The notes under the pieces: model-generated
The model's input: only the letters and a program-made list of their open reading frames with translations
Database searches by the model: none
Told to the model about the DNA's origin: nothing
Position numbers and translations under genes: made by a program
Shown: in pieces, positions 30,561 to 60,946 of the stretch
How the letters are laid out: every line of letters begins with the position of its first letter
Numbering within the stretch: the first letter of the stretch is position 1
DNA from: Aquabacterium sp. OR-4
GTDB taxonomy: Bacteria; Pseudomonadota; Gammaproteobacteria; Burkholderiales; Burkholderiaceae_C
Length of the DNA: 64,000 bases
NCBI RefSeq assembly: GCF_025290835.2
Contig: NZ_JAOCQD020000002.1
Span: 620,001-684,000, forward strand
Direction: 5' to 3'

Positions 30561-33500
30561 ATGGCCTCCAATATTCCGAACATGACGCCTGCGGAGATCG
30601 CTGCGCTGACCACGGTTCAGATCGCTGCCCTGACGGCGGCCGACTGGGCTGCCTTCAGCATCGATCAGATCGCGGCGCTCACGGCGGAGCAGATCGGTGT
30701 GATCCCGGTTCAGCGCATCGCCGTGCTCACGGCCACCCAGGTCGGAGCCTTCGACCCATCCGACTTCGCGGCGATGAACACCGCGCAGCTGCGCGGCATC
30801 GCCACCTCGGCCATGCCGGCGATGACCGCGGCCGACTTCGACGCCCTGACGCCCAGTCAGGTGCTGTCGCTCACCACCGGCCAGGTGCGGGCGATCGCCG
30901 CCACCGAGGTGGCGGCCATCTCCGGCAGCACGCTGGCGGGCTTGAGCACGCTGCAGGTCACCGCGCTGTCGACGGCCCAGCTCGCCGCGCTGACCGAAGG
31001 CCAGATGCAGAGCCTGAGCAGTGCGCAGCTGGTTTCGCTGACCACCTCCCAGCTGGTCTCGCTGGCCAGTGACGATCTGCGCTCGCTGTCGGCCGACCAG
31101 TTTGCCAACCTCACCAGCCGCCAGCTCGGCGCGCTGACCAGCAGCCAGGTGTCGAGCCTGGAGGCCACCTACCTGGCCGGGCTCAGCACCACGCAGCTGC
31201 GCGGCCTGAGCACCGCCGCCGCCGCCGGCATCGAATCGAGCGACCTGGCCTCGTTCAGCGCCGCGCAGGTGGCCGCCCTCGGCACGGCGCAGATCCGCGC
31301 GCTGGGCACCGGCACCGTGGCCGGCATGGACGCCGACACCATCGGCCGCCTCAGCGCCACCCAGGTGGCGGCCCTGAGCGCCGACCAGGTGGCGGCACTC
31401 GGCACCGACCAGCTGCAACTGCTGTCGGGTGCGCAGGTGGCGGCATTGACCAGCGCGCAGTTCGCGGCGCTGGGCGTGTCGGGCCTGAATGCGCTGACCT
31501 CGACCCAGTTCCAGGCCCTCACCAGCGTGCAGATGGGCCGCCTGAGCGCCACCCAGGTGGCCGCGCTCGAGACCGAAGACGTGGCCGCGCTCAGCGCGCT
31601 GCAGCTGCGCGGCCTGAGCACCGCCGCCATTGCCGCGCTCAACAGCGCCGAGCTGTCGGTGCTGTCGGCCAACCAGATCGTGGGCCTGACCACCACCCAG
31701 GTGCGCGCGCTCGACAGCGCCGACCTGGCCAGCCTGGGCACCAGCACGATCGCCGCGCTGGGCTCGGCCCAGATGTCGGGCCTGAGCTCGGCCCAGCTGA
31801 GCGCACTGTCGTCCGATCAGATGCAGGCGCTGACCAGCCAGCAGCTGCGCGCGCTGAGCACCGCCCAGCTCAGCAGCCTGGCCAGCGATGACCTGAACCA
31901 GCTCACCAGCACCCAGTTCCAGGCGCTCACCAGCCTGCAGGTGGCCGCGCTGACGACCAACCAGCTGCGCCAGCTCGAAGCCGAAGACCTGGCCGCGCTC
32001 GGCAGCAACCAGCTGCGCGGCGTCTCGGCCGCCGCCATCGCGGCGCTGGACAGCGACGACGTGGCCGCCCTCACCTCCGAACAGCTGCGCGCGCTCAATT
32101 CGGCGCAGCTGCGTGCCATCGAGACCGCCGACATCTCGGCCATCGACCCGGCCACGCTGGCCGGCCTGGGCTCGGCCCAGATCGGCCAGCTCACCAGTGC
32201 CCAGCTGTCGGCGCTCAGCTCCGACCAGCTGCAGACCCTGGGCACGGCCCAGCTGCGCGGCCTGAGCTCGTCGCAGATGGCCGGCCTGTCGACCGATGAC
32301 CTGAACCTCTACACGCCGGCGCAGATCGCCGCGCTGGGCACGGCGCAGATCGCCGGCATGACCAGCACGCAGATCGGTGCCCTGTCCAGCGAGCAGCTGG
32401 CCGCGCTGGGCACGCACCAGATTCGCGCCATCGACGCCGACGACGTGGCCGCGCTGAGCGGCGCCGACTTTGCCGTCTTCAGCTCGAGCCAGCTCGGCGC
32501 GCTGAGCTCGGCCCAGCTGGCCAAGCTCGACTCCTCCGATCTGGCGGGCCTGACGGTGGCGGCCATGGCCGGCCTGAGCAGCGGCCAGCTCGGCGCGCTG
32601 AGCTCGGCCCAGCTGGCCGCCTTGTCGAGCGACCAGCTGCAGGCCCTGGCCACGGCGCAGATCCTGGGCCTGAACACCGCCCAGCTGGGCCAGCTGGGCA
32701 GCGACGACCTGAACACGCTGACCAGCGCCCAGTTCGCCGCCCTGAGCACCAAGCAGATCATCGGCCTGAGCAATGCGCAGATCGGTGCGCTGGCCAGCGA
32801 CGACCTGGCCGCGCTGAGCTCGGCGCAGCTGCGCGCGCTGGGCACCCGCGGCATCGCCGCGCTCGACAGCGCCGACATGGCCGTGCTGTCGACGGCCCAG
32901 CTGGCCGCGCTGACCACCGCGCAGATCGGGGCCATCGAGACCGCCGACATCGTGGGCGTGCCCACCGCCACGCTGGCCACGCTGAACACCACCCAGATCG
33001 CCGCGCTGAGCAGCGCCCAGCTCGGCGCGCTGAGCTCCGAGCAGCTGCAGGCCCTGACCACGCACCAGCTGCGCGCGCTGAGCGCCTCGCAGCTGGCCTC
33101 GCTGTCGAGCGACGACCTCAACGTGCTGACGGCCGAGCAGCTGCAGTCGCTGACCACCGCCCGCGTGGCCTCGCTGACCTCGAACCAGCTCGACGCGCTG
33201 TCGTCTGACGACCTGCGTGCGCTGAGCACGCTGCAGATCCGCGGCCTGACCTCGGCCCAGATCGCAGCGCTGGCCACCGACACGGTCAACACCCTCACCA
33301 CCGACCAGTTCGGCGCGCTGACCAGCGTGCAGATCGCCGCGTTGAGCTCCGACCAGGTGGCCAACCTGGCCAGCGATCACCTGTCGTCGCTGAGCACCTC
33401 GCAAATCCGCGGCCTGGGCGCCGCCGACATCGCCGCGCTCGACAGCGCCGACATCGGCCTGCTCAACTCGGCCCAGATGCGGGCGCTGAGCTCGGCCCAG

Positions 33501-36500
33501 CTGCGCGCCATCGAGACCAACGACATCGTCGGACTCGACACCGAGACCCTGGCGCTGCTGAGCTCCACCCAGCTCGGCCAGTTCACCACCGCGCAGCTGG
33601 CGGCACTGGGCAGCGAGCAGCTGCAGGCCATCACCACGGCGCAGATCCGCGGCCTGGGCTCGGCGCAGATCGCCGGCCTGGACAGCACCGACCTCAACAC
33701 GCTGACCACCGCCCAGTTCGAGGCCCTGGCCAGCGTGCAGATCGCCGCGCTGAGCAGCAGCCAGCTGGGCGCGCTGAGCTCCGACAACCTGCGCGCGATG
33801 AACTCGGCGCAGATCCGCGCCATCGAGACCCGTGACCTCGCCGCCTTCGACAGCAGCGACCTCGCGGCGCTCACCAGCGGCCAGGTGCTGGCCCTGTCCT
33901 CGGCGCAGATCCGCGCCCTGGCCACCGACGACCTGCTCGGTCTGGATGTCACCGACCTCAGCGGCGCCCAGGTGGCGGCGCTCAGCAGCGCCCAGCTCGC
34001 GGCGCTGTCGTCCGACCAGCTGCGCGCCCTCACCAGCAGCCAGCTGGCGGGCCTGACCACCCAGCAGCTCGCCACGCTGGGCACCGACGACCTGCAAAGC
34101 CTCAGCAGCGACCAGTACGCGCTGCTGGGCACCCGCCAGATCGCCGCCCTGTCCAGCGCCCAGGTGGCGGCACTGGCCTCGGACGACCTGTCGCACCTCA
34201 CCAGCGCCCAGATCCGCGCCCTGGGCACCAGCATGCTGCGGGCCCTGGACAGCGCCGACATCGCCGTGCTGGGCGCCGACCAGGTGACCGGCCTGAGCAC
34301 CGCACAACTGCAGGCCATCGACAGCGCCGACATGGCCGGCCTGTCGAGCGAGGCGCTGCAGGCGCTGAGCTCGGCGCAGATCGCCGCGCTGACCTCGGCC
34401 CAGCTCACCGCGCTGGGCTCCGACCAGGTGGCCGCGCTCAGCTCGGTGCAGGTGGCCGCCATCGGCACCGCGCAGCTGGCCGCCCTGGGCACCGACGCGC
34501 TCAACGAGCTCACCGCCGCGCAGTTTGCGGCGCTGAGCACGCGCCAGATCGCCGCGCTCACCAGCGCCCAGGCCGCAGCGCTGCAGAGCGACGACCTGGC
34601 CGCCCTCAACTCGGCGCAGATCCGCGCGCTGAGCACCACCGCCATCGCGGCGCTCGACAGCGCCGACCTCCAGGCGCTGGGCACCATCCAGGTGGCCGCG
34701 CTGGGCTCGGCCCAGGTGCGGGCCATTGAAACCGCCGACCTGGCCGGTCTGGGCACCGACGACATGGCCGCGCTGAGCTCGGTGCAGGTCTCGGCCTTCA
34801 GCACCGCCCAGCTGGGCGCGCTGGGCTCCGACCAGATGCGCGCGCTCAGCAGCGTGCAGGTGGCCGGCCTGTCCACCGCGCAGCTGGCCGCCCTGGCCAC
34901 CGACGACCTGCTGGCCCTGACGACCACGCAGATCCAGGCCCTGAGCACCAGCCGCATCGCCGCGCTGAGCAACAACCAGCTCGCCGCACTGAGCAGCGAC
35001 CAGCTCCAGGCCCTGACCTCGGGCCAGGTGCGCAGCCTGAGCACCAGCCAGATCGCCAGCCTGGGCAGCGACGACCTCAACACGCTGACCGCCACCCAGT
35101 TTGCCCAGCTGACCACGGCCCAGATCGCCGGCCTGAGCAGCAGCCAGATCGGCACACTGGCCACCGACGACCTGGCCGCGCTGACCAGCGCCCAGATCGT
35201 GGCCATCGACAGCCGCGACCTGGCCGCACTCGACAGCGCCGACCTGGCCGCCCTGACCTCGATGCAGCTGGCCGCCATGCGCACCGCGCAGCTGGCCGCC
35301 ATCGACAGCGGCGACCTGGTGGGCCTGAGCACCACCTCGCTGGCCGGCCTGGCCACCGCACAGATCGCGGCGCTCACCACCGCCCAACTGGCCTCGCTGA
35401 GCTCTGACCAGCTGCGCAGCCTCACCGACACCCAGCTGCGCGGCCTGAGCTCGCTGCAGCTGTCGTCGCTGTCCACCGACGACCTCAACACCCTCACCAG
35501 CAGCCAGTTCCAGGCCCTGACCTCGGTGCAGATGGCCTTCCTGAGCAGCAGCCAGATCGGCGCGCTGCAGAGCGAAGACCTGGCCGCCCTGACCAGCGTG
35601 CAGATCCGCGCCATCGAGACCCGCGACATCGGTGCGCTCGACAGCGCCGACCTGGCCGCGCTGAGCAGCGGCCAGCTGGCCGCGCTGACCAGCGGCCAGC
35701 TGCGCGCCATCGACAGCGCCGACCTGACCGGCCTGACCACCGCCACGCTGGCCGGCCTGAGCAGCCTGCAGATCGCCACCCTGGCCACCCAGCAGCTCGC
35801 CGCCCTGGGCACCGACCAGTGGCGCGCCATGGACACCGGCCAGCTGCGCGGCCTGACCACCGCCCAGATGGCCAGCCTGGCCACCGACGACCTGGGCGCG
35901 TTCACCTCGGCCCAGCTGACCTCGCTGGCCACCGTGCAGATCAATGCGCTGACCAGTGCGCAGCTGGCGGCCTTGCCGTCGGAGAGCCTGTCGCTGTTGA
36001 ACACGGCCCAGCTGCGTGCCATCGACACCCGCAGCCTTGCCGCACTCGACACCGCCGACATCGCCGCCCTCACCTCCACGCAGCTCGGCGCCTTGAACAC
36101 GATGCAGCTGCGCGCGCTGGAGACGGCCGATGTGGCCGCGCTGAACACCACCGCCCTGCAGGGCCTGGGCAGCGCCCAGGTGGCAGCGCTGGGCAGCACC
36201 CAGCTGGCCGCACTCGGCACCGACCAGTGGCAAAGCCTGAGCAGCACGCAGCTGCGCGGCCTGAGCACCAGCCAGATGGCCAGCCTGGGCTCGGATGACC
36301 TGAATGCCCTGACCACCACCCAGATGTCGCAACTGGGCACCCACCAGCTGGCGGCTTTGACCAGCGCCCAGTTGGGCCGCATGGAGTCGGCCGACCTGGC
36401 CGGCCTGACCAGCGCCCAGCTGCGTGCGATCAGCACCCTGGCACTGACCGGCCTGGACAGCGCCGACCTGGCCGCCCTCAGCGTGGGCCAGACGGTGAAC

Positions 36501-39500
36501 ATGAGCGCCGAACAGCTGCGCGCCCTCGGCAGCGAGGATGTCGTGGGCCTGAGCACACAGGCCTTGTCGGGCCTGGGCAGCGCCCAGTTCGCGGCCATGA
36601 CCAGCGCCCAGTTCGGTGCGCTGAGCTCCGACCAGGTGGTCTCGCTCACCAGCGCCCAGCTGCGCGGCCTGGGCACGCAAGCCCTGGCCGGCCTGGCCAG
36701 TGACGACCTGAACGTGCTCACCTCGACCCAGTTCTCGCAGCTCAGCACCACGCAGATCGCGGCGCTCAGCAGCGCCCAGATGTCCAAGCTGGAGAGCACC
36801 GACCTGGCCGCCCTGACCAGCGCTCAGGTCCGCGCCATCGAGACCCGCGTGCTCGCGGCGCTCGACAGCGCCGACCTGGCCGCCCTGACCTCGGCCCAGA
36901 CCGGCGCCATGAGCTCCACCCAGCTGGCCGCGCTCGACAGCGCCGACCTGGCTGGCCTCAGCACCTCGGCCCTGTCCGGCATCGCGGCCTCGCAGATCAG
37001 CGGCTTTGGCACCGCCCAGCTGGCGGCGCTGGGCAGCGACCAATGGCGGGCGCTCGATTCGGCCCAGCTCAAGGCCCTGAGCTCGCGCCAGATCGCCCAT
37101 CTGACCAGCGAAGACCTCAACGCACTCAGCTCCAGCCAGTTGCAGGAGCTGACCACCACCCAGCTGACCGCGCTGACCAGCGCCCAGCTGGCCGGCCTGT
37201 CGTCCGACCACCTGCAGGCGCTGTCGAGCGTGCAGCTGCGCGGCCTGACCACCAGCCAGCTCGCCAGCCTGGGCTCCGACGACCTGCGCGTGCTCACCAG
37301 CGACCAGTTCTCGCAGCTCACCACGCAGCAGATCGGCGGCCTGACCAGCACCCAGCTGGCCGCACTGGAAAGCACCGACCTGGCGGCCCTGGGCTCGGGC
37401 CAGCTGCGCGCCATCGAGACCCGTGATCTCGCGGCCTTCGACAGCGCCGATCTGGCCGTGCTGAACTCCAGCCAGCTGTCCGGCCTGAGCACGGCCCAGA
37501 TCCGCGGCCTGGACAGCACCGACCTGGTGGGCCTGTCCACCGACGCGATGAGCGGCCTCAGCGCCGCCCAGATGGCCGCCTTCGGCACCGCCCAGCTGTT
37601 GTCGCTGGGCACCGACCAGTGGCGCTCGCTGTCCAGCACCCAGCTGCGCGGCCTGGGCACCGAGCAGATCGCCAACCTCGGCACCGAAGACCTGAACGCG
37701 CTGACGACCACCCAGCTGTCGGCCCTGACCACCGCCCAGATCGTGGCGCTGAGCTCGGTGCAGCTGGCCACGCTGGGCACCGAGGACATCGCCTCGCTCA
37801 CCACGGCCCAGATGCGGGCCATTGAAACGCGTGACATCGCCGGCCTGGACAGCGCCGACTTCACCGCACTCACCACCGGCCAGGTGGCCGCGCTCACCAC
37901 CGAGCAGCTGCGCGCCATCGAGAGCACCGACCTGTCGGCGATGAGCACCGCCGGCATCGCCGCCATCGCCACCGCCGGCCTGGCCGCGCTCACCACCACC
38001 CAGCTGGGCGCCATGGGCTCCGACCAGTGGCAGGCGTTGTCCAGCCTGCAGCTGCGCGGCTTGAGCACCGCCCAGCTGTCGGGCCTGAGCACCGAAGACC
38101 TTGCCGCACTCACCACCGAGCAGCTCGGCGGCCTCACCACCGACCAGCTGCGCGGCCTGACGACCTCCCAGATCGCCACGCTCGACAGCACCGATGTGGC
38201 CTCGCTGAGCTCGGCGCAGCTGCGCGGCTTCAGCACCCAGCAGATCGCGGCGCTGGACTCGTCCGACCTGTCGGGCCTGACCACGCAGCAGGCTGCAGGC
38301 CTGAGCTCTGACCAGCTGCGCGCGCTCGAAACCGCCGACCTGGGCGCCCTCAACACCAATGCGCTGGCCGCGCTGAGCACCGCCAACCTGGCGGCCTTTG
38401 CCACGGCCCAGCTGGCCGCGTTGAGCTCCGACCAGTGGCGCTCGCTGTCCACGCAGCAGGTGCGCAGCCTCACGGCCACGCAGATCGCCAACCTGACCAC
38501 CGACGATCTCGGTGCCCTCACCACCGACCAGCTGAGCAAGCTGACCAGTGACCAGCTGGTGGCGCTGACCACCAACCAGGTGGCCTCGCTCGACAGCGGC
38601 GACATCGCTTCGCTGACGACGGCCCAGCTGCGCTCGCTGACCTCGTCCGAGGTGGTGGCGCTCGACAGCGCCGACCTGGCCGCGCTCAACAGCGCCCAGG
38701 TGGCCGCACTCACGCTGACCCAGCTGCGTGCGCTGGAAACCGCCGACCTGGCGGCCATCACCACCGCCGGCATCGCCGCGCTGGCCACGGCCAACATGGC
38801 GGCCTTCTCGACGCGCCAGATCAGCGCGCTCGGCAGTGACCAGCTGCAGGCCCTGACCACCGCGCAGATCCGCGCGCTGGGCACCGACCAGCTGGTGGGC
38901 CTGGCCACCGACGACATCGTGGCGTTGCAGACCGTGCAGATCGCCGCGCTGAACACCGAGCAGCTGGCCTCGCTGAGCACGCTGCAGATCAATGCACTGC
39001 GCAGCGAAGACCTGGCCGCCCTTGGCACTGACCAGGTGCGCGCGCTGAGCACCGCCGCCGTCGCGGCCCTCGACAGCGCCGACCTGGCCGTGCTGACCTC
39101 GGTGCAGGTGGCCGCAATGTCGTCCGACCAGCTGCGCGCCATCGAGACGGCCGACCTGGCCGCGATGGTCACCGCCGCCATCATCACCCTGCCCACCGAG
39201 GCCCTCAGCGGCTTCAGTACCGCCCAGCTGGCAGTGCTGAGCAGCGACCAGTGGAAGGCCCTGACCACGCAGCAGCTGCGCGGCCTGACCACCGCCCAGG
39301 TGGCCAACATCACCACCGAAGATCTGGCCGCGCTGAGCACCGCCCAGCTGGCCGGCCTGAGCGCCGACCAGATCACCGCGCTGAGCACCACCCAGGTGGC
39401 CTCGCTCGACAGTGCCGACATCGCCGGCCTGGGCACCGACCAGATCCGCGCGATGGAAACCCGCGACATCGCCGCGCTGGACAGCGCCGACCTGGCGGCC

Positions 39501-42500
39501 CTCACGTCCAACCAGGCGGCCGCCCTCACCGGCGACCAGCTGCGGGCGCTGGAGACCGCCGACCTGGCGGCGCTGACCACCGCATCGCTGGTGGCCATCG
39601 GCGCCGACAAGATGGCCTCGCTGTCGACCCAGCAGCTCGGCGGCATGGCCAGCGACCAGCTGCGCGCGCTGACCACCGACCAGATCCGCGGGCTGACCAC
39701 GGCCCAGATCGCCTCGCTGGCCACCGATGACCTGCGCGCCCTCACCACCGAGCAGCTGTCGGTGCTCAACGACGAGCAGATCATCAGCCTGTCGACGACG
39801 CAGTTCGCCTCGATGGAAAGCGCTGACCTCGCCGCGCTCGGCTCTGACCAGGTGCGGGCGATGGAAACCCGCGACATCGCCGCGCTGGACAGCACCGACT
39901 TCGCGGCCATGACGTCCAACCACATCATGGCCCTGGGCAGCGCCCAGCTGGCGGCGATCGAGTCGGCCGACATCGTGGGCATGACCACGGCCGCGCTGTC
40001 GTCCATCAACGCCGCCAACATGGCCGCCTTCAGCACCCGCCAGCTGGCGGCGCTGGGCAGCGACCAGTTCCGCTCGCTCACCTCCGACCAGCTGGTCGGC
40101 CTGACCACCGCCCAGGTGGCCGGCCTGGGCACCGATGACCTGAATTCGCTGAGCACCACGCAGTTCGCCGCGCTGAGCTCGGCCCAGATCGCCGGCCTGA
40201 CCACGACCCAGGTGCAGGCGATGGAAAGCGCCGACCTGGCCGCACTGACCGCCGGCCAGATGGCTGCCATGAGCACCCGCGGCATCGCCGCCATCGACAG
40301 CTCGGACGCCTCGGCGCTGAACTCGGTGCAGCTGGCTGCGCTGAACACGGCCCAGATCCGCGCCTTCGAGACGGTGGATCTGACGGTGCTGGCCACCCAG
40401 GCCCTGGCGGGCCTGACCACGGTGCAGCTCACCGCTCTCAGCACCGCCCAGCTGGCAGCACTCGGCACCGACCAACTGCGCGCGCTCACCACCGAACAGG
40501 TGCAGGGCCTGAGCACGGCCCAGCTGGCCAGCCTGAGCACCGACGATCTGCGCAGCCTCACCGCTGACCAGTACGCGGCCTTCACCACCGCGCAGCTGGT
40601 GGCACTCGGCACCCAGCAGTACGCCAACCTGGAAACCAACGACCTGGCCACGCTGAGCACGAACCAGATTCGTGCCATCACCACCCAGGACATCGCCGCC
40701 TTCGACTCGGCCGACCTGGCTGTGCTGAGCGCCGACCAGGTCGGCGCGCTGACCTCGGCGCAGATGCGGGCCATCGAGTCGTCCGACATCGGCGGCCTCA
40801 CGGTCAATGCCATGGCCGGCCTGGGCACCAGCCAGATCGCCGCCCTGACCACCGGCCAGCTCGGCGCGATGGGCAGCGACCAGCTGCAGTCCCTCACCGC
40901 CACCCAGCTCTCGGCGCTGAGCACGGCCCAGCTGTCCGGCCTGGACAGCGCCGACCTGAACACGCTGACCGCCGACCAGTTCACCTGGCTGAGCACGACG
41001 CAGATCGCCGGCCTGACGACGCTGCAGTTCTCCACCATCGACAGCACCGACCTGGTGGCCCTGACCACCGCCCAGGTGCGCGCCATCGAGACCCGCGACA
41101 TCGCCGCGCTGGCCTCCGAGGACGTGACCGCGCTGACCGGCACCCAGCTGGCCGCGCTGAGCACGGCCCAGGTGCGCGCCATCGATTCGGGTGACATCTC
41201 GGGCATCGGTGTCAGCGCGCTGTCCAGCCTGGGCTCGCTGCAGATTGCCGCGCTGTCCACCGCCCAGCTCGAGGCCATGGGCAGCGACCAGATCCGCGCC
41301 CTCAGCGCCGATCAGCTGGCCGGCCTGAGCACGGTGCAGCTGGGCAGCCTGGGCAGCGACGACCTGAACGCGCTGACCGCCAGCCAGTTCCAGCTGCTGA
41401 GCACGCTGCAGATCGCCGGCCTGACCTCGCTGCAGCTGAGCACGCTGGAATCGACCGACCTGCTGGCCCTGAGCCCGGCCCAGGTGGCCGCCATCGAGAC
41501 CCGCGACCTCGTGGCCCTCGACAGCGCCGACTGGGCGGCCATGAACGCCAACTTCGTCAGCAGCCTGACCACCGCCCAGGTGCGCGCCATCGAGTCCGGC
41601 GACATCATCGGCATCGGTGAATCGGCCCTGTCCGGCCTCAGCTCGCTGCAGGTGGCCGCACTGTCCACCGTGCAGCTCGGCGCCATGGGCTCCGACCAGC
41701 TGCAGGACCTGAGCCAGCAGCAGATCGGCGGCCTGACCACAGCGCAAGTGGCTTCGCTGTCCACCGAAGACCTGAACACCCTCACGGCCACGCAGATCGG
41801 CTACCTGGGCACGGCGCAGATCGCCGCGCTGGGCACCGAGCAGGTGGCCAACCTGGAGAGCACCGACCTGGCCGCCCTCAGCGCCACCCAGGTGGCGGCC
41901 CTGAGCACCCGTGCCATCGTCGCCCTCGATACGGCCGATGCCAACCTGCTCAGTGCCGGCCAGGTGGCCGGCCTGACCACTGCCCAGGTGCGGGCGATGG
42001 AGACCGCTGACCTCGCCGCGCTGTCGGCCTCGGGCTTCGCCGCCCTGCATTCGGGCCACATCGCCGCGCTGGGCACCGACCAGCTGGGCGCGCTGACCAG
42101 CGATCAGCTGCAGGATCTGAGCAACGCCCAGCTCGCCGGCCTGACCACCGCGCAGGTGGCCAAGCTGGCCACCGAAGACCTGAACGCGCTCACGGCCAGC
42201 CAGTTCCAGGCCCTGACCACCCGCCAGATCGCCGCGCTGAGCACCGAACAGGTGACCAAGCTCGAAACCGCCGACCTGGCCGCGCTGAGCTCGGCCCAGA
42301 TGCGTGCATTGAGCGCCGCCAGCCTCACCGCGATGGACAGCACTGACCTCGGCGTGCTGTCGGCCGAGCAGCTCTCGGGCCTGAGCTCGACCCAGTTGAA
42401 GGCCATCGAAAGCAGCGACATCGCCAGTCTCGCGGTGAGTGCCGTGCGCGGCCTCACCTCCACGCAGATCGCGGTGCTGGCAACCGACCAGGTGGCCGGT

Positions 42501-45500
42501 CTGTCGTCCGATCAGCTGCAGGCCCTGTCCGACAGCCAGCTGCACGGCCTGAGCAACGCCCAGATCGGCGCGCTCACCTCCGACCAACTGGGCACCCTGC
42601 TGGGCTCGCAGTGGGCCGGCCTGTCGACCGCGCAGATCGCCGCGCTGAGCAGCGACCAGGTCAGAGCCATCGCCAGCGACGACCTGACCATGCTGACCAC
42701 GGCGCAGATCCGCGCCCTCGGCACAGAGGACATAGTGGCCATGGACAGTGCCGACCTGATCACCCTCACCGGCGAGCAGATGGCGGCACTCAGCATCGCC
42801 CAGGTGCAGGCCATCCAGTCCGACGACATCAATGCGCTGGGTGCGTCGATCAACGACCTGGGCGTGGCCCAGATCCGCGCCCTCAGCCAGGCCCAGTTCA
42901 ATGCCATGGCCACCGACGCCCTGGTGGCGATGAGCGCCGACTCGGTGAGCTCGCTGACCACCGAGCAGGTGAGCTGGCTCGACAGTACCGACCTCCGCGT
43001 GCTCACCGCCGACCAGCTGGGTGCGATGAGCACCACGCTGCTGCGCGCCATCGCCAGCGACGACATCGACAACATCTCGCTGTCGGCGCTGGGCGGCCTC
43101 ACGGCGGTCCAAGTGTCTGGGCTCACCAACGCCCAGCTCGCCTCGCTGAGCAGCGACCAGCTGCGCGCACTGAGCGATGGCCAGGTTGCCGGCCTGTCGA
43201 CGGCCCAGCTCACCTCGCTGGGTACCGAGGATCTGGGCACGCTGACGGCCACGCAGTTCCAGGCCTTCACCACACGCCAGATCGCAGCCCTGAGCTCCGA
43301 GCAGATCAATGCCCTGACCAGCGAGGATCTGCAGGCCTTCAGCGCCTCGCAGATGGCCGGCTTCACCACCAGCCAGCTGGCCAAGATGGGCAGCGACGAC
43401 CTCGCCCTGCTCACTGGTGAGCAGCTCGGTGCGCTGAGCAGCACACAGATCCGCGCCATCGAAAGCACCGACATCGCGGGCATCGGCCTCACCGCGCTGG
43501 CCGGCCTGTCGGGCAGCCTGGTGGGTGCGCTGACCGACGGCCAGCTGGCCTCGCTCAGCAGCGACCAGCTGCAGGCCCTGACCGACGACCAGCTGCGCGG
43601 CCTCGGCACCAGCCAGATCGCCAACCTGGGCACCGATGACCTGAACTCGCTGACCGCCAACCAGTTCCAGCAGCTCAGCACCGCCCAGGTGGCGGCGCTC
43701 ACCGCGGGCCAGCTGCAGAAGCTGGAAAGCACCGACCTGTCGGCGCTGACCGGAACCCAGGTGGCGGCCCTGCGCACCAGCCAGATCGCCAGCCTGACCA
43801 GCGACAACATCGCGTCGCTGACCGGCGAGCAGCTGTCGGCACTCGGCAGCGCACAGCTGCGGTCGATCGAGAGCACGGACATCGCCGCCATCGGCCTGAC
43901 CGCGCTGGGCAGCCTGAGCGCCACGCAGATGTCGCAGTTGACGAACGCCCAGCTCGCCTCGCTCAGCAGTGACCAGCTGCAGGCACTCAGCAACGACCAG
44001 CTGGCCGGCCTGTCCACCGCTCAACTGGCGTCGCTGTCGACCGAGGACCTCAACACCCTGACGGCGTCGCAGTTCGCGGCCCTGTCGGGCGGCCAGATCG
44101 CCGGGTTGACCGTGGTGCAGGTGTCCAAGCTCGAATCCACCGACTTGGCAGCGCTGGGCGGTGACCAGATGGCGGCCCTGCGCACCGCGCAGATCGCCGG
44201 CATGGACTCGGCCGACCTCGGCGTACTGAGCGCCGAGCAGCTGGGCGCCTTCACCACCACGCAGCTGCGGGCCATCGAGAGCGCCGACATCGCCGGCATC
44301 TCGGTCAGCGCCCTGTCCGGCCTCACCGCCAACCAGGTGGCAGGCCTGAGCACGGCCCAGCTCGGCGCGATGAGCAACGACCAGTTGCAGGCGCTCAACG
44401 CCGACCAGCTGGCCGGCCTGACTACGGCGCAGTTGGTGGGCCTGTCCACCGACGATCTCAACAGCTTCACCGCCACGCAGTTCCAGGCGCTGTCGGCGTC
44501 GCAGATGGCCGGTCTGACCACGCGCCAGATCGCCAGCCTGCAGAGCGAGGACATCCACGCCCTGTCGGCGCACCAGGTGCGCTCGATGACCACCGCCCAG
44601 CTGGCGGCACTGGACAGCACCGACCTGGGTGCCCTCACCGGCGAACAGCTGGCCGGCCTTTCGAGTGCCCAGATGCGGGTGCTGGACAGCAACGACGTCA
44701 TCGGCCTGAGCAACGATGCGCTGGCCGCCCTGACCGGCGCCCAGGTGGGCCAGCTCACCGCGGGCCAGATCAGCGGCCTGGGCACCGACCAGCTGCAAAG
44801 CCTGTCGGAGCAGCAGATCGCCGGCATGACCACGGCGCAGATTGCGGTGCTGGACAACACCGACCTGGCCTCACTCACCGACGCGCAGTTCCAGGCCCTG
44901 ACCACGGCCCAGATCGCCAGCCTGTCGACCTCACAGATCTACAACCTGAACGCCAGCGACTTCACGCTGCTGAGCGTGGCCCAGGTGCGGGCCATCGAGA
45001 CCACCGACATCGTGGCGATGACTGCCGCCGGCATCGGTGCGCTGAATGCCGAGCAAGTGGCCGCCCTGAGCACGCAGCAGGTGCGGGCCATCGAGACGGC
45101 GGACATCGCCGCGCTCTCGGCCGGTGACCTGCAGGAGTTCACCACCGCGCAGATCCGCGCGCTGAGCACGCTGCAGTTCGCCGCGCTGTCCAGCGACGAC
45201 CTGTCGCAGCTGAGCGCCACGCAGTTTGCGGCGCTGACCACGCAGCACATCCGCCAGATGGACAGCGTGGACATCGGCGCACTGAGCAACGAGCAGATCT
45301 CGGCCCTGACCACGGCCCAGGCCGCGTCCCTGACCACGGCGCAGATCGTGGCCCTGACCGATGGCCAGATCAGCGCGCTGGAGGTGCCCGACATCTCGGC
45401 GATGACCATGGCCCAGGCCGCGGCCTTCTCGACCGACGACTACAACCTGATGAACGCCTCGCAGCAGGCGGCGCTGACGGCCTTGTCGCCGATGATCCTG

Positions 45501-46181
45501 GACCTGGACGGCAACGGCATCCGCACGCTGTCGGCGGCCGAAGGGGTGCAGTTCGACCTCACCGCCACCGGCAACGTGGGCCAGTACGGCTGGGTGGGCA
45601 GCGGCGACGGCCTGCTGGTGCGCGATGTCAACGGCGACGGGGTCATCAACGATGGCAGCGAGCTGTTCGGCGCCGCCACCAAGCTGGCCAACGGCAGCAG
45701 CGCGGGCAATGGCTACGTGGCCATGGCCGCCCTCGACAGCAACGGCGATGGCCAGCTGTCGGCCGCCGACGAGGCCTTCGGCCAGCTGCAGGTGTGGGTG
45801 GACGCCGACGCCGACGGCACCACCGACCTGGGTGAGCTGAAGGGCCTGGTGGACCTGGGCATCGCCGCGCTGGATCTGGGCTACACCCAGTCCGACGAGG
45901 TGGACAACGGCAACCTGGTGGCCCTGCAGGGCAGCTACACCACGACCGACGGTGCCACGCACCAGATGGCCGACGTGTGGTTTGCCCAGCAGGCGGCCGA
46001 CGGCAGCGCACCGGTGATCGGCGAGCTGCTGTCCGAGCCGGCGGCCGATCTGGTGGGCGGCGCCAGCGTCGCGGCCAACAGCACGGCAGCGGCCACGGTG
46101 GCCAGCGGCGCCGCGCTGCCGACCACGCAGCTGACCTCGATCGACGAGGAACTGATGCGCAACCAAACGCCGCTGATCTGA
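30561..46181 (+). CDS. Giant 5206-residue octapeptide-repeat protein, predicted type I secretion substrate
   Basis: I do not recognise a named family for the repeat body. From near residue 10 to about 4970 the protein is an unbroken run of octapeptides with the pattern [Q/D]-[L/I/V]-x-x-L-[S/T]-[S/T]-x (for example QLAALSSD, QIRALGTA). Every 17 octads the same order of variants recurs (a DLNTLT octad, then QF, then an AIETRD or AIETAD octad), giving a 136-residue, 408-bp super-repeat, about 36 copies. There is no Sec signal, and I noticed no cysteine. Residues about 4976-5150 hold calcium-type loops (LDLDGNGI, DVNGDGVINDG, DSNGDGQLS, DADADGTTD), typical of C-terminal regions of type I-secreted RTX proteins and adhesins, ending ELMRNQTPLI. 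A type I secretion system lies 13-18 kb away. A giant secreted surface protein or adhesin is the best guess. The start has a strong Shine-Dalgarno. Confidence 0.88.
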   Translation: MASNIPNMTPAEIAALTTVQIAALTAADWAAFSIDQIAALTAEQIGVIPVQRIAVLTATQVGAFDPSDFAAMNTAQLRGIATSAMPAMTAADFDALTPSQVLSLTTGQVRAIAATEVAAISGSTLAGLSTLQVTALSTAQLAALTEGQMQSLSSAQLVSLTTSQLVSLASDDLRSLSADQFANLTSRQLGALTSSQVSSLEATYLAGLSTTQLRGLSTAAAAGIESSDLASFSAAQVAALGTAQIRALGTGTVAGMDADTIGRLSATQVAALSADQVAALGTDQLQLLSGAQVAALTSAQFAALGVSGLNALTSTQFQALTSVQMGRLSATQVAALETEDVAALSALQLRGLSTAAIAALNSAELSVLSANQIVGLTTTQVRALDSADLASLGTSTIAALGSAQMSGLSSAQLSALSSDQMQALTSQQLRALSTAQLSSLASDDLNQLTSTQFQALTSLQVAALTTNQLRQLEAEDLAALGSNQLRGVSAAAIAALDSDDVAALTSEQLRALNSAQLRAIETADISAIDPATLAGLGSAQIGQLTSAQLSALSSDQLQTLGTAQLRGLSSSQMAGLSTDDLNLYTPAQIAALGTAQIAGMTSTQIGALSSEQLAALGTHQIRAIDADDVAALSGADFAVFSSSQLGALSSAQLAKLDSSDLAGLTVAAMAGLSSGQLGALSSAQLAALSSDQLQALATAQILGLNTAQLGQLGSDDLNTLTSAQFAALSTKQIIGLSNAQIGALASDDLAALSSAQLRALGTRGIAALDSADMAVLSTAQLAALTTAQIGAIETADIVGVPTATLATLNTTQIAALSSAQLGALSSEQLQALTTHQLRALSASQLASLSSDDLNVLTAEQLQSLTTARVASLTSNQLDALSSDDLRALSTLQIRGLTSAQIAALATDTVNTLTTDQFGALTSVQIAALSSDQVANLASDHLSSLSTSQIRGLGAADIAALDSADIGLLNSAQMRALSSAQLRAIETNDIVGLDTETLALLSSTQLGQFTTAQLAALGSEQLQAITTAQIRGLGSAQIAGLDSTDLNTLTTAQFEALASVQIAALSSSQLGALSSDNLRAMNSAQIRAIETRDLAAFDSSDLAALTSGQVLALSSAQIRALATDDLLGLDVTDLSGAQVAALSSAQLAALSSDQLRALTSSQLAGLTTQQLATLGTDDLQSLSSDQYALLGTRQIAALSSAQVAALASDDLSHLTSAQIRALGTSMLRALDSADIAVLGADQVTGLSTAQLQAIDSADMAGLSSEALQALSSAQIAALTSAQLTALGSDQVAALSSVQVAAIGTAQLAALGTDALNELTAAQFAALSTRQIAALTSAQAAALQSDDLAALNSAQIRALSTTAIAALDSADLQALGTIQVAALGSAQVRAIETADLAGLGTDDMAALSSVQVSAFSTAQLGALGSDQMRALSSVQVAGLSTAQLAALATDDLLALTTTQIQALSTSRIAALSNNQLAALSSDQLQALTSGQVRSLSTSQIASLGSDDLNTLTATQFAQLTTAQIAGLSSSQIGTLATDDLAALTSAQIVAIDSRDLAALDSADLAALTSMQLAAMRTAQLAAIDSGDLVGLSTTSLAGLATAQIAALTTAQLASLSSDQLRSLTDTQLRGLSSLQLSSLSTDDLNTLTSSQFQALTSVQMAFLSSSQIGALQSEDLAALTSVQIRAIETRDIGALDSADLAALSSGQLAALTSGQLRAIDSADLTGLTTATLAGLSSLQIATLATQQLAALGTDQWRAMDTGQLRGLTTAQMASLATDDLGAFTSAQLTSLATVQINALTSAQLAALPSESLSLLNTAQLRAIDTRSLAALDTADIAALTSTQLGALNTMQLRALETADVAALNTTALQGLGSAQVAALGSTQLAALGTDQWQSLSSTQLRGLSTSQMASLGSDDLNALTTTQMSQLGTHQLAALTSAQLGRMESADLAGLTSAQLRAISTLALTGLDSADLAALSVGQTVNMSAEQLRALGSEDVVGLSTQALSGLGSAQFAAMTSAQFGALSSDQVVSLTSAQLRGLGTQALAGLASDDLNVLTSTQFSQLSTTQIAALSSAQMSKLESTDLAALTSAQVRAIETRVLAALDSADLAALTSAQTGAMSSTQLAALDSADLAGLSTSALSGIAASQISGFGTAQLAALGSDQWRALDSAQLKALSSRQIAHLTSEDLNALSSSQLQELTTTQLTALTSAQLAGLSSDHLQALSSVQLRGLTTSQLASLGSDDLRVLTSDQFSQLTTQQIGGLTSTQLAALESTDLAALGSGQLRAIETRDLAAFDSADLAVLNSSQLSGLSTAQIRGLDSTDLVGLSTDAMSGLSAAQMAAFGTAQLLSLGTDQWRSLSSTQLRGLGTEQIANLGTEDLNALTTTQLSALTTAQIVALSSVQLATLGTEDIASLTTAQMRAIETRDIAGLDSADFTALTTGQVAALTTEQLRAIESTDLSAMSTAGIAAIATAGLAALTTTQLGAMGSDQWQALSSLQLRGLSTAQLSGLSTEDLAALTTEQLGGLTTDQLRGLTTSQIATLDSTDVASLSSAQLRGFSTQQIAALDSSDLSGLTTQQAAGLSSDQLRALETADLGALNTNALAALSTANLAAFATAQLAALSSDQWRSLSTQQVRSLTATQIANLTTDDLGALTTDQLSKLTSDQLVALTTNQVASLDSGDIASLTTAQLRSLTSSEVVALDSADLAALNSAQVAALTLTQLRALETADLAAITTAGIAALATANMAAFSTRQISALGSDQLQALTTAQIRALGTDQLVGLATDDIVALQTVQIAALNTEQLASLSTLQINALRSEDLAALGTDQVRALSTAAVAALDSADLAVLTSVQVAAMSSDQLRAIETADLAAMVTAAIITLPTEALSGFSTAQLAVLSSDQWKALTTQQLRGLTTAQVANITTEDLAALSTAQLAGLSADQITALSTTQVASLDSADIAGLGTDQIRAMETRDIAALDSADLAALTSNQAAALTGDQLRALETADLAALTTASLVAIGADKMASLSTQQLGGMASDQLRALTTDQIRGLTTAQIASLATDDLRALTTEQLSVLNDEQIISLSTTQFASMESADLAALGSDQVRAMETRDIAALDSTDFAAMTSNHIMALGSAQLAAIESADIVGMTTAALSSINAANMAAFSTRQLAALGSDQFRSLTSDQLVGLTTAQVAGLGTDDLNSLSTTQFAALSSAQIAGLTTTQVQAMESADLAALTAGQMAAMSTRGIAAIDSSDASALNSVQLAALNTAQIRAFETVDLTVLATQALAGLTTVQLTALSTAQLAALGTDQLRALTTEQVQGLSTAQLASLSTDDLRSLTADQYAAFTTAQLVALGTQQYANLETNDLATLSTNQIRAITTQDIAAFDSADLAVLSADQVGALTSAQMRAIESSDIGGLTVNAMAGLGTSQIAALTTGQLGAMGSDQLQSLTATQLSALSTAQLSGLDSADLNTLTADQFTWLSTTQIAGLTTLQFSTIDSTDLVALTTAQVRAIETRDIAALASEDVTALTGTQLAALSTAQVRAIDSGDISGIGVSALSSLGSLQIAALSTAQLEAMGSDQIRALSADQLAGLSTVQLGSLGSDDLNALTASQFQLLSTLQIAGLTSLQLSTLESTDLLALSPAQVAAIETRDLVALDSADWAAMNANFVSSLTTAQVRAIESGDIIGIGESALSGLSSLQVAALSTVQLGAMGSDQLQDLSQQQIGGLTTAQVASLSTEDLNTLTATQIGYLGTAQIAALGTEQVANLESTDLAALSATQVAALSTRAIVALDTADANLLSAGQVAGLTTAQVRAMETADLAALSASGFAALHSGHIAALGTDQLGALTSDQLQDLSNAQLAGLTTAQVAKLATEDLNALTASQFQALTTRQIAALSTEQVTKLETADLAALSSAQMRALSAASLTAMDSTDLGVLSAEQLSGLSSTQLKAIESSDIASLAVSAVRGLTSTQIAVLATDQVAGLSSDQLQALSDSQLHGLSNAQIGALTSDQLGTLLGSQWAGLSTAQIAALSSDQVRAIASDDLTMLTTAQIRALGTEDIVAMDSADLITLTGEQMAALSIAQVQAIQSDDINALGASINDLGVAQIRALSQAQFNAMATDALVAMSADSVSSLTTEQVSWLDSTDLRVLTADQLGAMSTTLLRAIASDDIDNISLSALGGLTAVQVSGLTNAQLASLSSDQLRALSDGQVAGLSTAQLTSLGTEDLGTLTATQFQAFTTRQIAALSSEQINALTSEDLQAFSASQMAGFTTSQLAKMGSDDLALLTGEQLGALSSTQIRAIESTDIAGIGLTALAGLSGSLVGALTDGQLASLSSDQLQALTDDQLRGLGTSQIANLGTDDLNSLTANQFQQLSTAQVAALTAGQLQKLESTDLSALTGTQVAALRTSQIASLTSDNIASLTGEQLSALGSAQLRSIESTDIAAIGLTALGSLSATQMSQLTNAQLASLSSDQLQALSNDQLAGLSTAQLASLSTEDLNTLTASQFAALSGGQIAGLTVVQVSKLESTDLAALGGDQMAALRTAQIAGMDSADLGVLSAEQLGAFTTTQLRAIESADIAGISVSALSGLTANQVAGLSTAQLGAMSNDQLQALNADQLAGLTTAQLVGLSTDDLNSFTATQFQALSASQMAGLTTRQIASLQSEDIHALSAHQVRSMTTAQLAALDSTDLGALTGEQLAGLSSAQMRVLDSNDVIGLSNDALAALTGAQVGQLTAGQISGLGTDQLQSLSEQQIAGMTTAQIAVLDNTDLASLTDAQFQALTTAQIASLSTSQIYNLNASDFTLLSVAQVRAIETTDIVAMTAAGIGALNAEQVAALSTQQVRAIETADIAALSAGDLQEFTTAQIRALSTLQFAALSSDDLSQLSATQFAALTTQHIRQMDSVDIGALSNEQISALTTAQAASLTTAQIVALTDGQISALEVPDISAMTMAQAAAFSTDDYNLMNASQQAALTALSPMILDLDGNGIRTLSAAEGVQFDLTATGNVGQYGWVGSGDGLLVRDVNGDGVINDGSELFGAATKLANGSSAGNGYVAMAALDSNGDGQLSAADEAFGQLQVWVDADADGTTDLGELKGLVDLGIAALDLGYTQSDEVDNGNLVALQGSYTTTDGATHQMADVWFAQQAADGSAPVIGELLSEPAADLVGGASVAANSTAAATVASGAALPTTQLTSIDEELMRNQTPLI
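30590..45480 (+). repeat. 24-bp octapeptide repeats nested in 408-bp super-repeats
   Basis: About 620 octapeptide units (24 bp) are organised in blocks of 17 (408 bp). Three intervals between successive DLNxLT octads were counted as 17 units each; in one, a three-residue deletion was absorbed (DVTDLSGAQ). Copies are diverged rather than identical. The first roughly 70 residues and the last few octads are the most irregular. Confidence 0.88.
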
Positions 46182-46388: not shown

Positions 46389-47849
46389 TCAGGCCGGCGC
46401 GGGGCTGCCCCACTGCTGGCACAGCAGCGCATTGGGCAGCGGATCGCCCAGGCTGTCGTGGCTGGCCGGGCACAGCGCGCTGCGCACCGGCTGGCCGCTC
46501 ACATCGGCCAGCAGCGCCTCGCTGGCGCGGGCCTCGTTCAGCGTGGCTGATCCGGCCAGCACGGCGGCAAACAGGCCGTTCTCGCGTGGCATCAGCCGGG
46601 CCAGTTTCTGTGCCGCGGTCTGCAACTGCGCCGGCGGCAAGCCCAGCACCACCAGCACCGCGTAGGCGCCGCCCTGCGGCATGGCGTACACGCGGCCGGC
46701 GTTGGCCAGGTCAGCCATGTTCAGGTCCAGCACATCGGTGCGGCTGCCAGGGCCGAAAAACTGCATCAACGCCATCGAGGCCGCTTCCAGCTCGGGCGCA
46801 GCGAACGCCAGCGCGCCGGACGCATCGGTCACGCGCACCACCAGGGCGCGCAGGCCATCGCGGCGCCAGGGCCGCAACAGGCCTTCCAGCGCATCGGCCA
46901 CGCCGCGCCGCGGCGACACCTGCGCGCCCAGGCTGGCGCGATGCTGCCAGCACAGGTATTCCAGCAGCTCGGTGCGGCGCTGGTACTCGGGGTTGCCGCC
47001 GCGGCCATGGGCCAGCGCATGGCGGCGCGGGTCGGCCACGGCCTGGGGCTCGTCGCGGTGCTGCCAGCCGTAGCGCCGGGCGTCAAAGCTGGCGCGCAGG
47101 CGCTCGGGCGACAGCGAGCCCTGCCAGTGCAGAAACTCGTTGTCGCGGGTGATGCCGGGAAAGTAGTCGATCACGATGCCGGCGCGCTGGCGTGCCATGT
47201 CCAGCGAGAGCTGGTCGCGCTTGCTGTAGGCCAGGATGCTCTCCCACCACAGGCGGCCGAACTGCCGCAGCACCGGCGCATGGTGGCTGCGCAGCAGCAC
47301 GGTGCCGGTGGTCAGCGGCGTGATCTCGGCCAGCGGGCTCTGCTGGGCATAGGCATCGAGCTGGCGGCACACGGTGGCCACGTCGTCGTAGCCCAGCATC
47401 GCGATGGCGCCGGCCTCCTGGTGCAGGTGGGTGTGGCGCGAATGCTTGAAGGCGCGGAACACGAAGGCCCGGCCCTCGCCATCCACCTGCCGCGTGTGCA
47501 GGTCGGCCGCCTGCGGCAGGCGCTTGAAGGTGACGGTGTTGTCGATGTAGAGGCTGTGCTCGCAATCGCCGAAGTAGGCGTCGGGCATGGCCTTGGCGCG
47601 GCGCGAGGCCTTCTCGGGTGCCAGGTGCGATTCGTCGATCGGCACGCAGCGCCAGGCGGGCGAGCGCAGATCGGGGTTGTCGGTCAGGCACACGAAGTCG
47701 AGCTGCAGATCGCTGGCCGCACCGGGCGGCAACTGCGACAAGGGGTTGTTCAGCGCCTCCTTGGCGCCGATCAGCACCGTGTAGACCACCAGCCGGGTGC
47801 CGGGGCCCGCGGGCGCGGGCGTCTGGGAAGGGGTGTGCAGAACGCTCAT
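46389..47849 (-). CDS. DUF616/TOD1-type glycosyltransferase-like protein
   Basis: A 486-residue cytosolic-looking protein. Residues about 18-250 resemble DUF616/TOD1 family putative glycosyltransferases: [53 protein letters not shown] and [16 protein letters not shown]. The rest (about 300-486) has no family I recognise. The ATG at 47849 was chosen because similarity begins soon after it; the frame is open 84 codons upstream, but that part is Arg/Ala/Gly-rich shadow sequence. It converges on the giant gene and diverges from gmd across a 272-bp gap in which I see no gene. Likely substrate unknown; membership in the sugar cluster supports glycosyl transfer. Confidence 0.65.
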
Positions 47850-48121
47850 GGACGCCGATTCTCGGCAGCGCCGCAGGCCAGCCAGGGCCGGAAAAGCGCC
47901 CGCATTGCCGCCCTGTCGCCGGGCGCGCGGCACCGCCGCCCCGGCGCCCCCAGCCGCGCAGGGCCACGCCGGGGCCCGGAACAGCACCGTGTTTGCCCGC
48001 CTTTTGCCGCTCAAGTACGGCGCTGGCCGGTGTCCAATGTGCTGCAGTGGCGGCTTGCCGGCTGCACCCACGGGTGCGGTGCGGGCCGGTGCACCACCCA
48101 ACTTCGAGCCAGGGACACCCC

Positions 48122-49159
48122 ATGAAAAAAGCGTTCATCACCGGCGTCACCGGCCAGGACGGCTCCTACCTCGCCGAGTTCCTGCTCGCCAAGGGTTATG
48201 AGGTGCACGCCATCCTGCGCCGCAGTTCGGTGTTCACCACCAACCGCATCGACCATGTGCTGGATCACGAGCGGGTCAAGACCTACCACGGCGACCTCAC
48301 CGATTCCAGCAACCTGCACACCCTGCTGTCGCGCGTGCAGCCCGACGAGGTGTACAACCTGGGCGCCCAGTCGCATGTGGCGGTCTCGTTCGAGGTGCCC
48401 GAATACACCGCCGAGGTGGATGCGCTGGGCACCATCCGCCTGCTCAACGCCATCAAGGACCTGGGCCTGAAGCCGCGCTTCTACCAGGCCAGCACCTCCG
48501 AGATGTTCGGCGGCCTGCCCGAGACCGCGCCGCAAAGCGAGCGCACGCCCTTCCACCCGCGCTCGCCCTATGGCGCGGCCAAGCTCTATGCCTACTGGGC
48601 CACGGTGAACTACCGCGAGGCCTACGGCCTGCACGGCAGCAACGGCATCCTGTTCAACCACGAGTCGCCGCGCCGCGGCGAGACCTTCGTGACCAAGAAG
48701 GTCACCAAGGCCGTGGCACGCATCGCCCAGGGCCGCCAGCAGCAGCTGAGCCTGGGCAACCTGGACGCCAAGCGCGACTGGGGCTATGCCAAGGACTACG
48801 TGGAAGCCATGTGGCTGATGCTGCAGCAGGAGCGCCCCGACGACTACGTCATCGCCTCCGGCGAGACCTACAGCGTGCGCCAGTTCGTCGAGATGGCCTT
48901 CGCCGTCACCGGCGTGGCGCTCGACTGGGTGGGCGAAGGCGTCAACGAGCGCGGCGTGTGCCGCGTCACCGGCAAGACCCGCGTCACGGTGGACCCGCGC
49001 TACTTCCGGCCGGCCGAGGTGGATCTGCTGTGGGGCGACCCGGCCAAGGCACGCGAGAAGCTGGGCTGGCAGGTCAAGACGCCGATCAAGGACCTGGTGC
49101 GCATCATGGTCGAGTACGACCTGCGCCACGACGACTACGGCTGGAGCGACGAAGAATGA
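48122..49159 (+). CDS. gmd: GDP-mannose 4,6-dehydratase
   Basis: Gmd turns GDP-mannose into GDP-4-keto-6-deoxymannose, precursor of GDP-fucose, GDP-rhamnose and GDP-perosamine. The 345-residue product starts [18 protein letters not shown] (Rossmann fold). It has [14 protein letters not shown], the Ser/Tyr/Lys set in STSEMFGG and [11 protein letters not shown], and [15 protein letters not shown], a hallmark of Gmd. Length is typical. It overlaps the next gene, a probable reductase, by ATGA and leads the rightward sugar operon. Confidence 0.95.
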
Positions 49160-52207: not shown

Positions 52208-52238
52208 ACGCCCCAGCCTCCCGGCCAGCCCCCGCACG

Positions 52239-53024: not shown

Positions 53025-53055
53025 GCCACGGCACCGCCCCCCAACAAGGACCGAC

Positions 53056-56798: not shown

Positions 56799-56853
56799 GG
56801 TCAAAAGCGGTATCAGGCGGTTCGGGTCAGGGGCTGCGGATCGGGCGACGCAG

Positions 56854-59119: not shown

Positions 59120-59159
59120 GTCAGTCTTTTTCCATGGTGCCCATCGGCACCCTCTTGGC

Positions 59160-60940: not shown

Positions 60941-60946
60941 CACGAT

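Follow-up and report, generated by a model that had tools for sequence, protein, structure and literature searches.

The window analysed in this study, a stretch of 64,000 nucleotides of the Aquabacterium sp. OR-4 genome (contig NZ_JAOCQD020000002.1, positions 620,001 to 684,000), carries a gene for a giant ALTTAQ-repeat protein at 30561..46181 on the forward strand (stop codon counted in), with sugar-related and type I secretion system (T1SS) genes further along. The reading frame is open throughout and encodes 5206 amino acids, in agreement with the continuous 15.6-kb frame of an original prediction that was made from the sequence alone. Following 7 leading residues, octads of the consensus L-[S/T]-[S/T]-x-[Q/D]-[L/I]-x-x reach about residue 4971 (array at 30582..45473, forward strand, residues 8-4971) and add up to 621 units, two irregular ones counted in. 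The run of octads described as unbroken over ~4970 residues stands in its extent but not in its continuity, since a 5-residue unit (33942..33956, forward strand, residues 1128-1132) and a 7-residue unit (42837..42857, forward strand, residues 4093-4099) form its sole breaks. Units of 5 and 7 residues are also present in the array of genome G012, a member of the same genus, near its own residues 1165 and 3994, respectively.

The octads are arranged in a higher-order super-repeat. Amino acid self-identity of the array is 0.466 at a lag of 136 residues, 0.420 at 272 and 0.377 at 408, compared to 0.313 at a lag of 8, so that the anticipated 136-residue period shows up as peaks at 136 residues and its multiples; DNA self-identity of the array gene at lag 408 is 0.616. 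At the level of whole octads, identity at a lag of 17 octads amounts to 0.501, whereas shuffling of the octad order (n=100) yields a mean of 0.334 and a maximum of 0.346. The proposed 17-unit (136-residue) recurrence is accordingly present, but its order is interrupted by slips of 7 octads, as seen where the best lag is locally 24, 41 or 58. The array is old and diverged, and it is not an assembly artefact, a possibility raised with the original prediction, because its units are strongly diverged and because the independent genome G012 carries a colinear array (65% identity, 5066 aligned residues), in which one 136-residue block is absent; the tail contributes the only other gaps, 1 and 3 residues long. 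Among 8-residue segments, 604 of 648 are distinct, in a segmentation that extends into the C-terminal domain. Codon-position identities between the window and G012 array genes are 0.755, 0.794 and 0.687, indicating some constraint on the array protein. On the opposite strand (30333-44798, reverse strand), an open frame of 4821 amino acids with its own repeats is probably a by-product of octad codon use.

To define the repeat family, three pieces of the protein (two of 1000 amino acids and the last 307, i.e. 2307 of the 5206 residues) were scanned against Pfam. Judged by these profile matches, the octad repeat is already catalogued as the ALTTAQ repeat family PF20080 (ALTTAQ_rpt), with E values of 1e-190 and 1e-213 on the two 1000-residue pieces (617.6 and 691.1 bits against a cut-off of 26.4, in 39 and 42 stretches) and with 39.2 bits in the last 307 residues. 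Moreover, the solved structure PDB 9zem, 'HeliScrew4', is a sequence relative that aligns gap-free over ~104 octad residues (E 2.2e-12, or 8.2e-16 with a longer query). The original prediction knew of no named family and took profile matches restricted to Burkholderiales as a sign of a new one; both points have to be revised, as PF20080 is found in 28 of 398 genomes of an even sample of the phylum and in 55 plasmid records of varied genera (among them Rhizobium 17, Shinella 12, Cereibacter 11 and Pseudomonas 2). In the set of close relatives, the family is present in 18/20 other genomes of the genus and in 0/19 genomes of other genera. PF20080 also co-occurs in proteins with PF05860 (which we take to be the two-partner secretion domain), PF01476 (LysM), PF00648 (presumably calpain), PF24606/PF10162 (G8) and PF00353 (RTX), suggesting that the octad screw discussed below is reused in other proteins.

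Next to the family assignment, we obtained a structural model of 272 amino acids of the array (34125..34940, forward strand). Using as input these 272 residues and 28 further in-register rows taken from the same protein, AlphaFold2 predicted 34 short helices, each octad forming one of 4-6 residues, and no strand (mean pLDDT 94.9, pTM 0.83). This model favours the earlier proposal of one tiny helix per octad and disfavours the beta-solenoid that had been named as its alternative. A leucine-rich repeat (LRR) was likewise rejected for the lack of strands in the model, despite PF23952 matches of 38.4 and 60.5 bits over a cut-off of 27.9; LRR chains are also among the sequence matches of the array to solved structures. 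The best Foldseek matches of the model are mesothelin superhelices (PDB 8cx3, 7ued and 8cyh; four chains, E 1.8e-4 to 6.3e-4), which resemble it in packing short helices into a superhelix, but differ in overall geometry (TM-scores of just 0.27-0.33); 9zem is not among the Foldseek matches listed for the model.

The array of Cereibacter sphaeroides 2.4.1 pA (L087:13615-18300, WP_011836189.1) is labelled 'ICE nucleation protein', and sister records of this PF20080-matching protein are labelled 'heme utilization protein'; both names are probably wrong. An ice-nucleation or ice-binding role for the window protein, which would draw on this product name and on the long Thr-rich tandem array, seems to us extremely unlikely, given that ice-nucleation proteins are beta-solenoids whereas the array is predicted to be all-helical, and that no Pfam ice-nucleation octapeptide was matched at E<=1 in the three scanned pieces.

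The simplest reading of the two-level order is a screw of ~3.4 mini-helices per turn, which we infer from the periodicity of the sequence. Fourier analysis of the octad columns gave a dominant period of 3.404 octads (power 12.7), and the next peak, at 2.425 octads (power 4.9), falls at the expected place of the aliased second harmonic of 5/17. Shuffling of the octad order (n=200) reached a maximal power of 1.97 compared to the observed 12.18. Harmonic 5 of the 17-unit accounts for 46.7% of the super-repeat variance, a share reached by 0/5000 permutations of the 17 phases when the phase is fixed by counting octads, although 7-octad slips nearly preserve harmonic 5 while scrambling the others and partly explain its dominance in this fixed-phase test. 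Most of the seven genus relatives analysed have a weaker harmonic-5 share than the window; it is the largest share in six of the seven (harmonic 3 is ahead of it in G004), and the observed maximum was reached by 62/1000 permutations for G003 and 96/1000 for G015. Finer spectra place the top peak at 3.39-3.40 octads in all seven.

The period is retained in distant arrays with other super-repeats, namely those with best lags of 24 octads (period 3.43) and 31 octads (period 3.44); at ~3.4 mini-helices per turn, 17 octads equal 5 turns, 24 equal 7 and 31 equal 9. Of 28 genome-locus arrays, 21 have the 3.33-3.5 peak in first place and the other 7 in second, behind a peak at 2.42 (G407, L086), ~2.0 (G143, G155b, G167), 8.5 (G427) or 4.8 (L083_3). 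The 17-octad super-repeat would accordingly exist since exactly 5 turns are completed by 17 octads, which keeps a residue type on the same face, and the 621 units would form ~183 turns of a ~180-nm rod, assuming a rise of ~1 nm per turn. Gaps in the array alignments are of 136 amino acids against G012 and of 80, 136, 136, 408 and 136 (plus 1 and 3) against G008, and indels between these closer orthologous arrays therefore appear to be whole or nearly whole turns.

Against this geometry stand the following points: recombination among similar repeats would favour turn-sized indels anyway; the gaps against G020 (52% identity) and G004 (45% identity) are mixed, many being of 8, 16, 24, 40, 48 or 72 amino acids and most of them apparently not whole turns, in alignments that are less trusted; just 1/16 other proteins from the word search has a 3.4 peak among its two best; and the value of 3.4 helices per turn derives from sequence periodicity. 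Two further periodicities are worth recording. The two shortest of the seven genus arrays (G003:C2:73087-79551 and G015:C55:119331-124103) show a third level of order, their best lag being 51 octads (15 turns), and the octad-rich protein P0008 repeats at 108 and 216 residues, near 4 and 8 turns of 27 residues, the period of 108 being no multiple of 8.

When charges were projected onto the screw, the acidic resultant pointed to 18 degrees (0/5000 permutations) and the basic one to 203 degrees (p 0.0014), which would place an acidic and a basic stripe on opposite faces. Glycosylated surface layers (S-layers) are common, and opposed stripes, together with the Ca-binding-looking C-terminal domain described below, could be expected of an S-layer or sheath subunit whose rods pack laterally via these stripes into a Ca-dependent sheet. 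We regard such a role as improbable, since array length within the genus ranges from 170 to 807 octads, which is unusual for a lattice subunit, and none of the three scanned pieces matched an S-layer family.

The array is followed by a non-repeat C-terminal domain (45474..46178, forward strand) with DxNGDG / DxDxDG loops, recognised by eye, and the tail DEELMRNQTPLI. An acidic-L-[LM]-[RK] tail pattern is common to the window protein and 7/7 genus relatives and would be a candidate for the uncleaved C-terminal signal of type I secretion substrates. Domains related to the C-terminal one were found in 12 large proteins, RTX repeats being present in 7; on the domain itself, Pfam EF-hand models score below cut-off. 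In the scanned residues of the array protein, neither PF00353 (RTX, GGxGxD nonapeptide repeats) nor, in the first 1000 residues and the other pieces, the two-partner secretion domain PF05860 was found, and no LapA-type N-terminal retention module was found in the 7 residues preceding the octads.

Type I secretion genes, which the original prediction had named as neighbours to look for, lie near the array, in the same window: the outer-membrane, adaptor and ABC genes occupy 59259-63948, 13 kb downstream of it. They encode a TolC-like outer-membrane protein (59259..60902, reverse strand; PF02321 101 bits, TIGR01844 84.8 bits, below its cut-off of 225), a HlyD-type T1SS adaptor (60947..62185, reverse strand; TIGR01843 312.6 bits, cut-off 208.65) and a type I secretion ABC transporter (62209..63948, reverse strand; best match TIGR03375 with 642.7 bits, below its cut-off of 693.1). 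Just past the window edge, after the ABC gene and on the same strand as the T1SS genes, lies a 611-residue gene product with tetratricopeptide repeats (TPRs) and both PF13844 halves (G000:C2:684575-686410, reverse strand; PF13844 E 1.4e-68). Among solved structures it is closest to XcOGT (E 5.8e-85), and SPINDLY matches at E 1.7e-50; with these TPRs and PF13844 halves, the enzyme belongs to the GT41 glycosyltransferases of the O-GlcNAc-transferase (OGT) type.

Sugar genes sit between the array and the exporter genes. On the reverse strand, a glycosyltransferase-like gene (46389..48101; PF04765 TOD1/MUCI70, 23.2 bits, cut-off 21.4) follows the array. The forward strand carries gmd, encoding GDP-mannose 4,6-dehydratase (47618..49159, match from near 48125; TIGR01472 540.6 bits, cut-off 415), a GDP-L-fucose-synthase-like sugar-nucleotide epimerase (49165..50079; NF047922 231 bits, below its cut-off of 500), a SAM-dependent methyltransferase (50503..51087), a DegT-type sugar aminotransferase (51110..52207), a group 1 glycosyltransferase (52158..53024) and an FkbM-family methyltransferase (52855..53925). 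A glycosyltransferase-2-like gene (56118..56804) and a further group 1 glycosyltransferase gene (57962..59161) are again on the reverse strand.

Upstream of the array, flhB, flhA, flhF and fliA-type genes are arranged divergently. This position of flhB, which recurs in the genus, and a Rhodovastum plasmid with fliR, flhA, fliQ, fliE, flgC and fliI-type genes 2-8 kb from an array-GT41 pair could be taken to mean that the protein is exported via the flagellar gate and decorates the flagellum. We consider this very unlikely, as 0/31 array-bearing regions outside the genus and Rhodovastum have a flagellar match in the examined stretch (with queries from two organisms) and T1SS genes lie beside the array in several lineages.

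To what extent GT41 and exporter genes accompany such arrays was analysed in 44 regions: 42 of them carry an array, and GT41 is matched in 22. In 13/42 array-bearing regions (13/22 of those with GT41), the match begins on the array strand, 0.6-0.9 kb past the array, and in 10/10 examined of these 13 the array stop codon and the first possible GT41 start codon are 18-160 bp apart; of the remaining GT41 genes, 2 adjoin the array upstream and 7 lie at 2.4-29 kb. Within the genus, PF13844 is located 2.3-2.6 kb from a HlyD gene in 12/12 genomes examined. In G073, G084 and G116, the array and a HlyD gene with an adjoining ABC gene are 0.4-0.6 kb apart, and plasmids provide further combinations: array, GT41, methyltransferase, GT4, ABC, HlyD, TolC and gmd in Pseudomonas, and array, GT41, ABC, HlyD and rhamnose genes on Cereibacter sphaeroides 2.4.1 pA. 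UDP-glucose/GDP-mannose dehydrogenase and epimerase genes adjoin the array-GT41 pair in G488 and G597; in G643, the neighbours examined include no sugar gene, but an autotransporter and a GGDEF-EAL protein. In the phylum sample, PF13844 occurs in 19/28 array genomes compared to 114/370 others (Fisher p 1.3e-4); since a single family supplies 16 of these 19, and the proportion outside it (3/12) is no more than background, this count gives no independent support.

Not every array has GT41 or secretion genes in its vicinity. Sugar clusters beside flagellar genes are common, and the array adjoins flhB in 7/7 genus relatives analysed. The same type-I-exported screw might therefore be unglycosylated, a plain giant adhesin or extender, with the sugar genes and GT41 serving lipopolysaccharide, capsule or flagellin. 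Array-positive genomes without any GT41 exist, and FlmG is a TPR glycosyltransferase serving flagellin (PMC7591256). On the other side, GT41 directly follows the array in the 13 regions mentioned, which belong to several families and 12 of which have no flagellar match in the examined stretch, and GT41 is kept with T1SS genes throughout the genus genomes examined. We judge the unglycosylated screw to be unlikely, albeit deserving consideration.

To look at acceptor residues, we compared the 22 GT41-linked arrays with 5 arrays lacking GT41 in well-covered flanks. Ser/Thr at octad residue 2, the helix cap, is equally frequent in both groups (0.68 linked and 0.69 unlinked, p 0.80), whereas Ser/Thr at residues 3 and 4 amounts to 1.20 in linked and 0.69 in unlinked arrays (p 0.0008), and Pro at residue 3 to 0.012 and 0.162, respectively (ranges 0-0.07 and 0.10-0.24, p 0.00035). 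The same direction is observed within genomes: the window array has a Pro value of 0.01 compared to 0.12 for a second octad array of the same genome, and the pair G386_C2 and G386_C1 behaves likewise. This second array (G000:C2:152079-158645, L059), in a 2189-residue frame, is richer in Pro and poorer in Ser/Thr, and neither GT41 nor T1SS genes were matched in the 20 kb examined. The comparison is no more than suggestive of GT41-linked arrays bearing Ser/Thr where unlinked ones more often bear Pro.

On the basis of the GT41 linkage and this acceptor composition, we propose O-glycosylation of the array, and on balance we lean towards the window protein being a ~180-nm, type-I-secreted, cytoplasmically O-glycosylated helical rod. 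Each octad would fold as one short helix capped by Ser/Thr (as predicted at pLDDT 94.9), and successive mini-helices would pack into the long screw of ~3.4 helices per turn. Before export, Ser/Thr at octad positions 2-4 would be O-glycosylated in the cytoplasm by the TPR-GT41 encoded beside the exporter, and sugars from the gmd, fcl-like and glycosyltransferase genes may be used by GT41 or extend its glycans. Export would follow via the downstream type I system, helped by the Ca-binding-looking C-terminal domain and the conserved tail, as the gene content suggests, to yield a long sugar-coated surface or matrix rod. SPINDLY is a GT41 enzyme able to use GDP-fucose (PMC9715652), which fits gmd and the fcl-like gene, but proves no donor here. 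More generally, and more tentatively, a dedicated cassette of array, TPR-GT41, exporter and sugar genes might make mucin-like rods, i.e. rigid screws with a super-repeat set by integer turns (17/5, 24/7, 31/9) that are densely O-glycosylated in the cytoplasm and then exported, by type I secretion in the case of the window.

A number of observations weigh against this glycosylated and secreted rod. The GT41 gene of the window's genome lies 18 kb from the array on the opposite strand, and just 7/12 genus genomes have the GT41-T1SS set and the array on one contig (8-79 kb apart). GT41 is absent from the examined stretch of 20/42 array-bearing regions, some of these stretches stopping at a contig end or short of a more distant GT41, and 9/28 array-positive genomes of the phylum sample are without PF13844. 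In nine array-GT41 genomes of another class, no HlyD is found near the array, and TIGR01843 over cut-off is absent from three of them (G491, G552, G701). With regard to acceptor residues, the unlinked arrays number five, the groups were picked after the values had been seen, the statistics ignore relatedness, and 15 further arrays without GT41 in the examined stretch, which were left out, have Pro values of <= 0.03. In addition, AlphaFold2 modelling of the C-terminal domain gave a pLDDT of just 39. Finally, glycan, secretion and rod function are, like the screw geometry, predictions drawn from genes and sequence.

The proposed system can be compared to several known ones. The octad sequence is that of PF20080, whose Pfam entry is a 38-residue sequence model, and among the papers listed in literature searches none describes the 3.4-octad period, closed super-repeats or GT41/T1SS linkage. 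HeliScrew4 (9zem), whose octads align without gaps and whose name suggests the same helical screw, comprises 120 residues and mostly has Pro next to the cap (LTPEQ, LSPDK), a position held by Ser/Thr in the window array. LapA and SiiE are giant type I adhesins and, like MpAFP, resemble the array protein in very long repeats, type I secretion and Ca-binding elements. In MpAFP, however, the extender consists of ~120 copies of a 104-residue Ig-like repeat, in contrast to the 8-residue helices of the array, whose octads begin at residue 8 without a preceding N-terminal retention module.

Two precedents combine a glycosyltransferase with an exported protein. The HMW1A-HMW1B-HMW1C system of Haemophilus (PMC3012730) co-encodes a giant exported protein, a cytoplasmic GT41-family enzyme and an exporter, and here the GT41 enzyme is likewise encoded with the array, though 18 kb apart in the window's genome. 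HMW1C has no TPRs, forms N-linked hexoses and belongs to two-partner secretion, whereas the present system has an enzyme with TPRs, which mark the O-linking type, Ser/Thr as putative acceptors and a presumed type I route. FlmG of Caulobacter (PMC7591256) is akin to our proposal in joining TPR and glycosyltransferase domains and in cytoplasmic modification before export; it differs in its substrate, flagellin, and in the flagellar export route. The combination of array, TPR-GT41 and type I exporter, likewise described in none of the papers listed in literature searches, would be a new variant beside these precedents and, if true, would add a third exported glycoprotein served by a GT41-type enzyme to HMW1 and flagellin. 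It would also imply that glycosylated chains can pass through type I secretion, that the two-level order reflects screw geometry, with ~3.4 octads per turn predicting the permitted super-repeat lengths, and that nature provides a helical rod which lengthens with the number of repeats.

Some of the numerous bacterial enzymes of the OGT type would furthermore find their substrate in such arrays, PF13844 being present in 133/398 sampled phylum genomes. Open frames of 2462-3781 amino acids with two or more consecutive GT41 matches (G143:C92:27095-35212 (L099), G104:C17, C29, G155:C1, C379 and G167:C153) resemble multi-headed O-glycosyltransferases, and their host genomes are rich in octad arrays. 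A methyltransferase like the neighbour of the Rhodovastum array is found 37-470 bp from the array in G003, G004, G015, G020 and a Comamonadaceae metagenome-assembled genome (L084).

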